Below are positions 1 through 20,610 of a stretch of 64,000 bases of DNA, piece by piece; within the stretch, counting starts at the first letter, position 1; each line of letters starts with the position of its first letter. The stretch spans positions 1-64,000 of the forward strand of contig NZ_CP030862.1 in assembly GCF_003325375.1 (NCBI RefSeq), read 5' to 3'. Position numbers and translations under genes: made by a program. Source of the DNA: Streptomyces globosus. GTDB taxonomy: Bacteria; Actinomycetota; Actinomycetes; Streptomycetales; Streptomycetaceae. The notes beneath the pieces were generated by a model. That model ran no database searches. It was not told the DNA's origin and worked only from the letters and a program-made list of their open reading frames with translations.

Positions 1-1740
1 GTGCTCGACAAGCTCCTGGGGGAGGGGCAGCAGGCGATCGAGCCCAAGGACCGGCAGTGGATCGAGCGCTGCCAGCCCCTGGCCCTGGTCGCCGACACCG
101 CACTGCTCGCGGTGCCCAACGAGTACGGCAAGCGCGTCCTCGAGGGCCGCCTCGCCCCGCTGATCAGCGATGCGCTGAGCCGCGAGTGCGGCCGCCCGAT
201 CCGCATCGCCATCACCGTCGACGACTCGGCCGGCGAGCCCGCCCCCATGGCGCCGCCGGCCCCGCAGCGCGGCGACGCGTACGAGCCGTACGGCGGGCAG
301 CGCTCCGGCGGGCACACCGGCCCGGCCGACGACCAGCTGCCGACGGCCCGCCCCGCCTACCCGGACTACCAGCAGCCGCGCCCCGAGCCCGGCACCTGGC
401 CCCGCGGGGGCCAGCAGGACGACTACGGCTGGCAGCAGCCCCGCCTCGGCGGCTTCCCCGAGCGCGACCCCTACGCCTCCCCGCAGCCCGGCTACCTCCA
501 GCAGCCGGAGTCCGGCGGCTACGAGCAGGGCCCGTACGACCAGAACGGCTACGACCAGGGATCCTACGAGCAGAAGCCGTACGAGTACGATCCGCAGCCG
601 CTGCCCTACGAGCAGCAGCAGTACGAGCAGTCCGCGCCGCGCCCGGCGCCCGGCCGGCCCGCCCCGCCGGCGCCGTCCGCCGGCTCGACCTCGGGCCCGC
701 TGGAGCCGACGGCCCGGCTGAACCCGAAGTACCTCTTCGACACGTTCGTGATCGGCGCGTCGAACCGCTTCGCGCACGCGGCCGCGGTGGCGGTCGCCGA
801 GGCGCCCGCCAAGGCCTACAACCCGCTCTTCATCTACGGCGAGTCCGGCCTGGGCAAGACGCACCTGCTGCACGCCATCGGGCACTACGCGCGCAGCCTG
901 TACCCGGGGACGCGGGTGCGGTACGTGAGCTCGGAGGAGTTCACCAACGAGTTCATCAACTCCATCCGCGACGGCAAGGGCGACGCCTTCCGCAAGCGCT
1001 ACCGCGAGATGGACATCCTGCTGGTCGACGACATCCAGTTCCTCGCGAGCAAGGAGTCGACGCAGGAGGAGTTCTTCCACACCTTCAACACGCTGCACAA
1101 CGCGAACAAGCAGATCGTGCTGTCCTCCGACCGGCCGCCCAAGCAGCTCGTCACGCTGGAGGACCGGCTCCGCAACCGCTTCGAGTGGGGCCTGATCACG
1201 GACGTGCAGCCGCCCGAGCTGGAGACGCGCATCGCGATCCTGCGCAAGAAGGCGGTGCAGGAGCAGCTCAACGCCCCGCCGGAGGTGCTGGAGTTCATCG
1301 CCTCCCGCATCTCGCGCAACATCCGCGAGCTGGAGGGGGCCCTGATCCGGGTCACCGCCTTCGCGAGCCTGAACCGCCAGCCGGTCGACCTGGGCCTGAC
1401 CGAGGACGTCCTGAAGAACCTGATCCCGGGGGGCGAGGACTCGGCGCCCGAGATCACGGCCGGGGACATCATGGCGGCCACCGCCGACTACTTCGGCCTG
1501 ACGGTGGACGACCTGTGCGGCTCCTCGCGCAGCCGGGTGCTGGTCACGGCGCGGCAGATCGCGATGTACCTGTGCCGGGAGCTGACGGACCTCTCCCTGC
1601 CGAAGATCGGTGCGCACTTCGGCGGCCGCGACCACACCACCGTCATGCACGCGGACCGCAAGATCCGCGCCCTGATGGCGGAGCGGCGCTCCATCTACAA
1701 CCAGGTCACCGAGCTCACGAACCGCATCAAGAACGCCTGA
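1..1740 (+). CDS. dnaA: Chromosomal replication initiator DnaA (5' end cut by the window)
   Basis: DnaA binds DnaA boxes in oriC, opens the duplex and loads the replicative helicase. The visible frame starts at base 1 with a GTG, but Streptomyces DnaA normally has roughly 15-20 residues before the equivalent of LDKLLGEGQ, so this is most likely an internal Val of a gene entering from the left. Seen in order: N-terminal DnaB/DnaA interaction domain (about 1-80), a long low-complexity Tyr/Gln/Pro/Gly linker (about 90-235) with repeated YEQ/YDQ units, the AAA+ ATPase with Walker A GESGLGKT near residue 280 and Walker [10 protein letters not shown] near 339, and the C-terminal HTH with [13 protein letters not shown] near 543. 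The long linker is a Streptomyces trait. It is followed by a hairpin and then oriC, its target. Confidence 0.98.
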
Positions 1741-1762
1741 CCGGCGCTTCCTCCCTCGCATC

Positions 1763-1798
1763 CACAGGCCGGCCCGCGGCTCCCCGGGCCGGCCTGTG
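1763..1798 (+). terminator. Hairpin terminator after dnaA
   Basis: A perfect 14-bp inverted repeat (left arm CACAGGCCGGCCCG, right arm 1785-1798) with an 8-nt loop lies 23 bp after the dnaA stop. No T-run follows, as is common for Streptomyces terminators. It would keep dnaA transcription out of oriC. Its left edge overlaps a weak DnaA box, GCATCCACA at 1758-1766. Confidence 0.6.
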
Positions 1799-2439
1799 CG
1801 CTGCCTCCCGACAGCCCGTCAAAGTGCCTTCTGCGGGGTCTCGGTGCTCCGCCAAACGCATCCACAGGGCGCTTCCGGATCACTCCGGGGGCGCCCTTCT
1901 TCATGCGCGCGCCTCTGGTCTGTTCGAATACGCCCCCTGGAGAGCAACTTATCCACAGATTGCGGGACTTTCTTGGGTCCACAGGGTGGGGACGGGTTTC
2001 GTCACCCACAATCTGTCCACAGGGCTGCCTGGTGAGGGACCATCAGGGCAGGTCAGCCGCCTGTGGAATTGTGCACCGAAGATATCCACAGACTGTGGAC
2101 AGCCACTCCGTCCACAGACACGTCCACGGCGTTGTCCACCGCCAACCCACAGGTTGCCGCATGCTGTGCACAGGTTCCGATGACTTACCCACACCGCTGT
2201 CCACTGTTCGGCAACAGAGTGACCCCGCTCACCGGCCGGAGTGAAAGCCGTCACACCAAGGTCGACGTTTGGGCTGTGGAGTACCGGGGGAAAACTGGGG
2301 ACGCAGCTGTGGAGTACTCCGGGTCATCTGGGGATGGCCTGTGCAGAACTTTCTGTTCTCCACAGCGACACCGTGTTGTCCACGGCGCCGCCCACAGGGC
2401 ATGGGGATAAAAACTGGGGCTTGACCTGCGGAAACGGGC

Positions 2440-2471
2440 TTATCCACGGTTTCCACAGCCCCTACTACTAC
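2440..2471 (+). promoter_or_regulatory. Candidate basal unwinding element: tandem DnaA boxes, GC spacer, TAC trios
   Basis: Two DnaA boxes abut directly (TTATCCACG 2440-2448, GTTTCCACA 2449-2457). They are followed by GCCCC (2458-2462) and three consecutive TAC triplets (2463-2471). This is the same order and spacing as the Bacillus subtilis unwinding region, where DnaA-trio triplets after a GC cluster guide DnaA onto a single strand. The layout is seen directly; the role is inferred from B. subtilis. Confidence 0.6.
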
Positions 2472-2705
2472 CCCCATGGACAGTTAGCTCGGAATCGGTT
2501 TTCAAGCAGCCCCTGTGCACAACCCGGCTCGAAGGCCTCCCCGACACCTCGCTCCGGATTTGACGGCCGGCAGCACGCGCTGTCGGTGCCGTACGTCAGA
2601 CTGGTTCCCGGCACCGACGGGCCGCAGCCCCCGGGGCACGGCAGCGGCGGGCCGACGACGAAGGCCGGCAGACGGACGAGCGAGCAACAGCAGGAGGCGG
2701 TTCCG

Positions 2706-3836
2706 GTGAAGATCCGGGTGGAGCGCGACGTACTCGCGGAGGCGGTGGCCTGGGCTGCCCGCAGCCTCCCGGCCCGGCCGCCCGTGCCCGTCCTCGCGGG
2801 CCTGCTGCTGAAGGCCGAGGAAGGGACGCTGTCCCTCTCCGGCTTCGACTACGAGGTCTCGGCCCGCGTCTCCGTCGAGGCGGACGTCGAGGAGGACGGC
2901 ACCGTCCTCGTCTCCGGCCGGCTCCTCGCCGACATCTGCCGCGCCCTCCCCAACCGGCCGGTGGAGATTTCCACAGACGGTGTACGGGCGACCGTGGTGT
3001 GCGGCTCCTCCCGCTTCACCCTCCACACCCTGCCGGTGGAGGAGTACCCGGCCCTGCCGCAGATGCCGACCGCCACCGGCACCGTCTCCGGCGAGGTCTT
3101 CGCCGCCGCTGCGGCCCAGGTCGCCATCGCCGCCGGCCGTGACGACACCCTTCCCGTCCTCACCGGCGTCCGCATCGAGATCGAGGGCGACCGCGTCACC
3201 CTCGCCTCCACCGACCGCTACCGCTTCGCGGTCCGCGAGTTCCTGTGGAAGCCGGAGAACCCGGATGCCTCCGCCGTCGCCCTCGTCCCCGCCAAGACGC
3301 TCCTCGACACGGCGAAGTCCCTGACCAGCGGCGACACCGTCACCCTGGCGCTGTCGGGCTCCGGTGCCGGCGAGGGCCTCATCGGCTTCGAGGGCGCCGG
3401 CCGCCGCACCACCACCCGCCTCCTCGAAGGCGACCTGCCCAAGTACCGCACGCTCTTCCCGACCGAGTTCAACTCCGTCGCCGTGATCGAGACCGCCCCC
3501 TTCGTGGAGGCCGTCAAGCGCGTCGCGCTGGTCGCCGAGCGCAACACCCCGGTCCGCCTGAGCTTCGAGCAGGGCGTGCTGATCCTGGAGGCCGGCTCCT
3601 CCGACGACGCACAGGCTGTGGAAAGGGTCGACGCGGTCCTGGAGGGCGACGACATCTCGATCGCCTTCAACCCGACCTTCCTGCTCGACGGCCTCAGCGC
3701 GATCGACTCGCCCGCCGCCCAGCTCAGCTTCACCACGTCCACCAAGCCGGCGCTCCTCAGCGGCCGCCCCGCCGTGGACGCCGAGGCGGACGAGGCCTAC
3801 AAGTACCTGATCATGCCGGTGCGCCTCTCCGGCTGA
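2706..3836 (+). CDS. dnaN: DNA polymerase III beta subunit (sliding clamp)
   Basis: Encodes the ring-shaped processivity clamp that tethers polymerase III and repair factors to DNA. The 376-residue length fits the family. The protein begins VKIRVERDVLAEAVAWAARS and ends in the conserved YKYLIMPVRLSG, matching the last strand of domain 3 that helps form the peptide-binding pocket. The frame is open much further upstream, but I chose the GTG at 2706 because AGGAGG (2692-2697) sits 8 bases before it and the protein then starts at the normal clamp N-terminus. It lies directly right of oriC and is transcribed away from it. A further weak DnaA-box-like sequence occurs inside the gene near 2965. Confidence 0.98.
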   Translation: MKIRVERDVLAEAVAWAARSLPARPPVPVLAGLLLKAEEGTLSLSGFDYEVSARVSVEADVEEDGTVLVSGRLLADICRALPNRPVEISTDGVRATVVCGSSRFTLHTLPVEEYPALPQMPTATGTVSGEVFAAAAAQVAIAAGRDDTLPVLTGVRIEIEGDRVTLASTDRYRFAVREFLWKPENPDASAVALVPAKTLLDTAKSLTSGDTVTLALSGSGAGEGLIGFEGAGRRTTTRLLEGDLPKYRTLFPTEFNSVAVIETAPFVEAVKRVALVAERNTPVRLSFEQGVLILEAGSSDDAQAVERVDAVLEGDDISIAFNPTFLLDGLSAIDSPAAQLSFTTSTKPALLSGRPAVDAEADEAYKYLIMPVRLSG

Positions 3837-20482: not shown

Positions 20483-20546
20483 CCCTCCACAAGGTTATCC
20501 ACAGATCTTCTGTCTTTTCCTCAGGTGTGGATGACGCTGTGGATAA
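20483..20546. promoter_or_regulatory. DnaA-box cluster outside oriC
   Basis: Within 64 bp of the rhomboid/crgA intergenic gap lie CCCTCCACA (20483-20491, weak), TTATCCACA (20495-20503, perfect), TCATCCACA on minus (20526-20534) and TTATCCACA on minus (20538-20546, perfect). The two perfect boxes point at each other. The local sequence is AT-rich compared with its surroundings. Clusters of DnaA boxes outside oriC are known in S. coelicolor to influence initiation; assigning that role here is inference. Confidence 0.75.
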
Positions 20547-20610
20547 CTCATGGGGAGAACTTGCGGGCCGGGCGGCCGGTGTGCTCAGCCGCCCGGGCCC
20601 CGCGACCTGC

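Follow-up and report, generated by a model that had tools for sequence, protein, structure and literature searches.

A candidate DnaA-box/DnaA-trio unwinding element between dnaA and dnaN in Streptomyces

The present analysis concerns the replication origin in a stretch of 64,000 nucleotides, hereafter the window, which comprises bases 1-64000 of the largest contig of a 7.5-Mb Streptomyces genome and is 73% GC. Judged from its letters, its conservation in related genomes and the predicted stability of the duplex, the site at 2440-2470 together with the stretch that follows it is very probably where the Streptomyces origin has its basal unwinding system (BUS) of DnaA boxes and DnaA-trios. As read from the sequence, two abutting DnaA boxes are followed by a GC spacer and three trios in the order TTATCCACG-GTTTCCACA-GCCC-CTA-CTA-CTA, and the base after CTACTACTA is a C at 2471. 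The features of the region are as follows.

1..1740, + strand: dnaA, read from base 1 of the contig; its trio-contact residues are identical to those of 8btg
1741..2705, + strand: oriC intergenic region, 965 bp, with 18 sites at no more than two mismatches from TTATCCACA
2402-2410, - strand: inverted DnaA-like box TTATCCCCA, overlapping an A-tract at 2409-2413 on the + strand
2422..2430, + strand: conserved element TGACCTGCG ahead of box 1; it is no canonical DnaA box
2440..2448, + strand: DnaA box 1, TTATCCACG, the upstream and better box, one mismatch to TTATCCACA
2449..2457, + strand: DnaA box 2, GTTTCCACA, at a gap of 0 from box 1, two mismatches to TTATCCACA
2458..2461, + strand: GCCC, a GC spacer that separates box 2 from the first trio
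2462..2470, - strand: three DnaA-trios, CTACTACTA on the + strand and 3'-GAT-GAT-GAT-5' on the - strand, conserved, and in a register supported by the class alignment
2460..2509, no strand assigned: predicted first-opened duplex, the least stable 50 bp of the dnaA-dnaN gap by nearest-neighbour energies
2706..3836, + strand: dnaN, downstream of the oriC gap

Layout of the site and its surroundings

By the published definition of a BUS (Pelliciari 2021), a DnaA box with no more than two mismatches lies 0-16 bp from the trios, a second box stands in tandem with it at a gap of at most 3, the upstream one usually being the better match, and there are at least three contiguous 3'-NAN-5' trios. In the window, box 2 with its two mismatches lies 4 bp from the trios and box 1 with its single mismatch 13 bp from them, the gap between the boxes is 0 with the upstream box 1 the better match, and exactly three contiguous trios are present, all of them 3'-GAT-5', the fourth triplet being CCC. 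The spacing of 13 from box 1 to the trios is also the commonest one in the published survey of origins (PMC8287927). The sequence-only reading had proposed a box-box-GC-trio order of the B. subtilis type, and this order is matched down to the gap of 0 and the spacer of 4. It had parsed the letters as GCCCC followed by TAC three times; those letters and that layout are indeed present, but the parsing was one base out of register, and a trio register of CTA rather than TAC is supported by the alignment of the class. The - strand of 2462-2470 is the predicted strand bound by the DnaA filament.

If the element works in the manner of its B. subtilis counterpart, DnaA would bind the two abutting boxes via domain IV, and the AAA+ domains of the box-bound DnaA would come to lie beside the GCCC spacer. 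From there, on the model of the B. subtilis structure, additional DnaA-ATP protomers would polymerise rightwards on the - strand, each holding one 3'-GAT-5' trio; the filament would stretch the DNA and flip bases, the duplex would open from 2462 towards dnaN across a weak stretch of oriC, and the helicase would presumably be loaded in the opened stretch.

CTACTACTA occurs once in the 64 kb and in 0 of 100 dinucleotide shuffles, and a BUS-like scan of both strands of the 965-bp dnaA-dnaN gap (box with no more than two mismatches, 0-16 bp, at least three trios with a middle T on the strand read) gave the 2440-2470 site as its sole match, from either box. A box-linked run of three trios appeared in 8.4% of 5000 dinucleotide shuffles of the gap, and a box-linked run with two or three CTA in none of the 5000.

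Elsewhere around the origin, TTGTGCACA at 2514-2522 on the - strand is DnaA-box-like and lies downstream of the trios, and CTGTGCA is also found downstream of the trios in L286-L290. At 20495-20559, 18 kb from oriC, there is a second DnaA-box cluster made up of two perfect inverted copies of TTATCCACA and near matches. Streptomyces is known to have a box cluster with a limiting effect on initiation, on which a literature search gave nothing among the matches listed.

Conservation in the genus, the family and the class

The strict box-box-spacer-trio pattern (TCCAC, 4, TCCAC, 5, CTACTACTA) was found at fixed spacing in 386 of 392 Streptomyces genomes, the window's own included and with one match each in the table rows, and a reversed control pattern gave no match in the same 392-genome search. 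The six remaining genomes carry CTACTACTA at the same place with an altered box 1, which is TTATGCACC in L020 and TTATCCCC in L286-L290, and CTACTACTA was found in 392/392 genomes when the pattern search and the reading of the six misses are taken together. A 141-bp query matched 295/295 genomes of the genus; the locus was read in 90 of those 295, the window's own among them, and a gap of 0, a 4-nt spacer and CTACTACTA were found in 90/90, with the columns of box 1 near invariant except for its last base. Conservation of the triplets among close relatives was one of the two observations on which the sequence-only reading had staked its proposal, and in both samples they were retained. Upstream of box 1, TGACCTGCG lies at -18 to -10 in the genus, with its TGA and CTG columns at 98-100% over the 90 loci, and it can also be made out in the class loci, there at about -19 to -11. 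The fifth trio has C at its + strand centre in 83/90 genus loci (G on the trio strand), and this G-centred type of trio 5 counts against a BUS because G slowed strand separation in B. subtilis, as do the small number of trios in the window, only three, and the CCC at its trio 4. Since these genomes share ancestry and their neighbourhood is conserved throughout, the invariance in the genus is not independent evidence, and it shows that the block is constrained more than it shows this for just the trios.

Outside Streptomyces but within the family, the locus was read in 40 of 51 genomes, and trios 1-3 were CTA-YTA-CTA behind the best box pair in 40/40 loci, the runs being CTACTACTA in 25 and CTATTACTA in 15. 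The class sample held 82 loci from 36 families, i.e. 22 best matches and 60 picked to spread over families, from 107 out-of-family genomes with a dnaN match. Each locus was anchored on its best abutting box pair (gap 0) within 750 bp of dnaN, with the trios unused, and this anchor fits most class loci. Sixteen of the 82 had no clear best box pair (margin <2 or score <18) and were excluded from the column table and the class stability figures; the totals for the first trio and for NKA take in all 82.

The first trio was CTA in 52/82 class loci, and CTA stood at the same place in 1/82 after the second-best box pair and in 1/82 on the opposite strand, which served as controls. CTA three times over was found in 6/82 and YTA three times over in 11/82, and 30/82 do not start with CTA. 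On the aligned loci the strict Streptomyces trio sequence is not general in the class, and N-K-A on the + strand is. An in-frame NKA occupied 183/328 positions at trios 2-5, compared with 30/328 after the second-best box pair and 24/328 on the opposite strand, and with a shuffle expectation of mean 40.0, sd 5.7 and maximum 58 in 2000 shuffles.

In the 66 clear class loci (31 families) the three-base period spans five trios and then ends. The + strand centre was T or G in 65, 62, 50, 48 and 49 of the 66 loci at trios 1-5, A in 1, 2, 3, 2 and 0, and C in 0, 2, 13, 16 and 17; on the trio strand, therefore, almost every centre at trios 1-2 and about three quarters of those at trios 3-5 are A or C, and T is hardly ever found. 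Weighted by family over all 82 loci, the T-or-G share at trios 1-5 was 0.88, 0.78, 0.65, 0.69 and 0.69, as calculated from rounded figures. Where the + strand centre of trios 2-5 precedes an A (n=191 in the class), it was G in 107, T in 55, C in 22 and A in 7; the comparison upstream gave G 33%, T 7%, C 40% and A 20%, so that G and T are raised at the trio centres and C and A lowered. A 121-bp stretch from L219 matched 18/60 genomes of its genus, and of these 18 loci, which were the ones read, 6/18 fit the box-box-trio pattern; the remaining 12/18 fail it, yet similar runs are seen in their alignments.

A related layout with a spacer one nucleotide shorter was found in other bacteria. A contig scan for box-box, a 3-nt spacer and CTACTACTA, in which selection used the boxes and trios 1-3 only, gave 63 contigs (L223-L285), 56/63 with the layout no more than 1.5 kb from a dnaA or dnaN match. 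Many of the records are titled Clostridia or relatives, and others Zipacnadia, Armatimonadetes, WS1, Uhrbacteria, Riflebacteria and a cyanobacterium; none of the listed titles names an actinobacterium, though several give no more than "bacterium", and the listing may omit close neighbours of the window's genome. In 44 distinct oriC-adjacent sequences of this set the + strand centre of trio 4 was T in 37 and G in 7, that of trio 5 was T in 38, G in 5 and A in 1, and 42% of the bases at trios 7-9 were A. In this set A predominates at the trio-strand centre, C accounts for some of the rest, and other bases are all but absent. The box-box-spacer-CTACTACTA order beside dnaA or dnaN is that of the window, with a spacer of 3 nt as opposed to 4, and the 3-nt-spacer pattern had 0 matches in the window's own genome.

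Duplex stability and competing explanations

The weak duplex that follows the trios in a BUS is present in the window at 50 bp, and not at 12 or 20 bp. At the 30-bp scale the stretch from 2461 is the third weakest of the gap; the least stable 12-bp stretch is 2406-2417, and at 20 bp the trios are more stable than several other places, among them the region of the inverted box and A-tract. The remark in the sequence-only reading that high-G+C Streptomyces origins are usually said to be without a clear AT-rich site has to be qualified: at 50 bp 2460-2509 is the weakest stretch of the gap, and at 12 and 20 bp other places are weaker. In related genomes the best 50-bp window starting at -3 to +12 from the first trio fell within the lowest 5% in 85/90 genus, 35/40 family and 58/66 class loci (28/29, 20/25 and 49/57 among loci with the whole gap present), and 50 bp starting exactly at the trio did so in 84/90, 35/40 and 53/66.

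It is possible that opening begins instead at the inverted box and A-tract (GGGGATAAAAAC, 2403-2414) or at another weak place, and that the boxes and trios only anchor DnaA. This would be consistent with 2406-2417 being the weakest 12 bp and with the greater weakness of that region at 20 bp, with retention of the A-tract (2409-2413) in the genus and family, and with melting in M. tuberculosis, which was mapped at the dnaA end of the gap. At 50 bp, however, it is the trio region that is weakest, and conservation of the A-tract does not extend to the class (AT in that bin is 82% in the genus and 38% in the class), whereas the trio period and the weak stretch after the trios are, and we consider such a start to opening unlikely.

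L291, L292, L293, L295 and L296, from a genus that is presumably mycobacterial, have box 1 at -310 to -312, followed by CTA TTA CTR and a T-rich stretch; a search for the M. tuberculosis site itself matched 0/248 genomes. Against an opening at the trios stands the KMnO4 probing of M. tuberculosis, which mapped melting to the dnaA end of the gap, 500-518 bp upstream of dnaN (PMC2607554). Of the primers in that study, one annealing at -292 to -320 and one at -402 to -420 read away from dnaN and would be blind to a site near -290; the third lies in the vector and reads towards dnaN, and in principle it could see such a site, the reported products being only 63-79 nt (PMC2607554). A site of the L291 type would be missed by two of the three primers, and need not be by the third.

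Still less probable is that the conserved block is a dnaN promoter or regulatory site, or an operator controlled by DnaA, and has no part in unwinding: the block does lie upstream of dnaN and does carry DnaA boxes, but a consensus scan, which covers the sigma-70 type only, found no sigma-70-like promoter in 1700-2720, and a period of three bases that keeps a constant distance from the boxes when the 36 families are pooled is not what a promoter would lead one to expect. Least credible of all, despite the relatedness of the genus members and the conservation of their flanks, is that the trios are a functionless by-product of shared ancestry or low-complexity sequence, given that 0/5000 shuffles had a box-linked run of even two CTA, that the trio columns of the class are informative for five trios and then stop, and that 56/63 spacer-3 contigs have the layout near a dnaA or dnaN match.

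Known unwinding systems and the centre of the trio

In B. subtilis the BUS, made up of DnaA-boxes 6/7, a GC cluster and six DnaA-trios, also lies on the dnaN side. The window resembles it in the two boxes, the short GC spacer, the trios of 3'-GAT-5' consensus beside the boxes and the identity of the trio-contact residues of DnaA, and differs in having three strict trios against six, a spacer of 4 against the reported 5-mer, a GC content of 73% and a stretch after the trios that is only relatively weak. Origins of the E. coli type have AT-rich 13-mers, TTATT and ATP-DnaA boxes. They share with the window a DnaA-box cluster beside the opening site; the dnaA-dnaN gap contained no TTATT and no AGATCT, and its best match to the 13-mer consensus was 9 of 13 with two N positions counted as matches. 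P1-nuclease assays in C. difficile located unwinding in the oriC2 region, which has a trio run and a predicted AT-rich site (PMC7561715). That run is of the CTACTACTATTACTACTA type and lies upstream of the predicted weak stretch (PMC7561715), much as in the window, and C. difficile differs in its greater number of trios and its bipartite origin. For T. maritima it was found that binding did not need the annotated box-proximal trios and that they played only a supporting part in opening, the essential element being three TAG repeats farther from the boxes (PMC10316083); a matching layout is therefore not in itself proof of function.

The BUS and its breadth have already been published, with 1755 of 2070 origins (PMC8287927), and the Streptomyces site may already stand in the tables of that paper. 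None of the passages searched describes a Streptomyces trio, and no melting map of a Streptomyces oriC was found in the literature searches. The S. coelicolor origin is long and has 19 DnaA boxes (PMC3411110).

N316, I319, I322, R331 and E357 of the window's DnaA correspond in the alignment to 8btg to N187, I190, I193, R202 and E228 of B. subtilis, residue numbers counted by hand on that alignment, and all five are identical; in B. subtilis these residues hold the trio bases (PMC10721633). Among 19 DnaAs of other actinobacterial families (L309-L328, none from L325) the equivalents of N187, I190, I193 and E228 were unchanged, and at the equivalent of residue 202 there was Q in 12 DnaAs from nine families, R in 6 others and K in the last one. 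Eleven further DnaA loci count little because they were found by a motif that demands R or K at 202 and similar residues elsewhere. They include R lineages with TGA and AGA trios. No clear link between residue 202 and trio sequence emerged.

B. subtilis strands separated at a similar rate with C or A at the trio centre and more slowly with G or T, and in vivo cells with C grew faster and initiated more than those with G or T; Asn187 holds the amino group at the trio centre (PMC10721633). This C-for-A option at the trio centre seems to be used in natural origins, and none of the passages searched describes natural C-centred trios. We lean, with some reservation, towards the view that the BUS of Actinomycetes is a five-trio element with A or C at the trio-strand centre, in which the first trio is usually 3'-GAT-5' and later ones often 3'-GCT-5', 3'-ACT-5' or 3'-GAT-5', that DnaA would read the exocyclic amino group via the equivalent of Asn187, and that high-GC origins may have shifted to C-centred trios. 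The published BUS motif search demands A at the trio centre (PMC8287927) and, if this view is true, is blind to C-centred trios. Such natural trios would then provide a natural test of the nucleobase-capture model, the contacting Asn being unchanged in the DnaAs examined. For Streptomyces, the site offers a base-level and directly testable candidate for where the origin opens, with its CTACTACTA in all 392 genomes of the genus searched.
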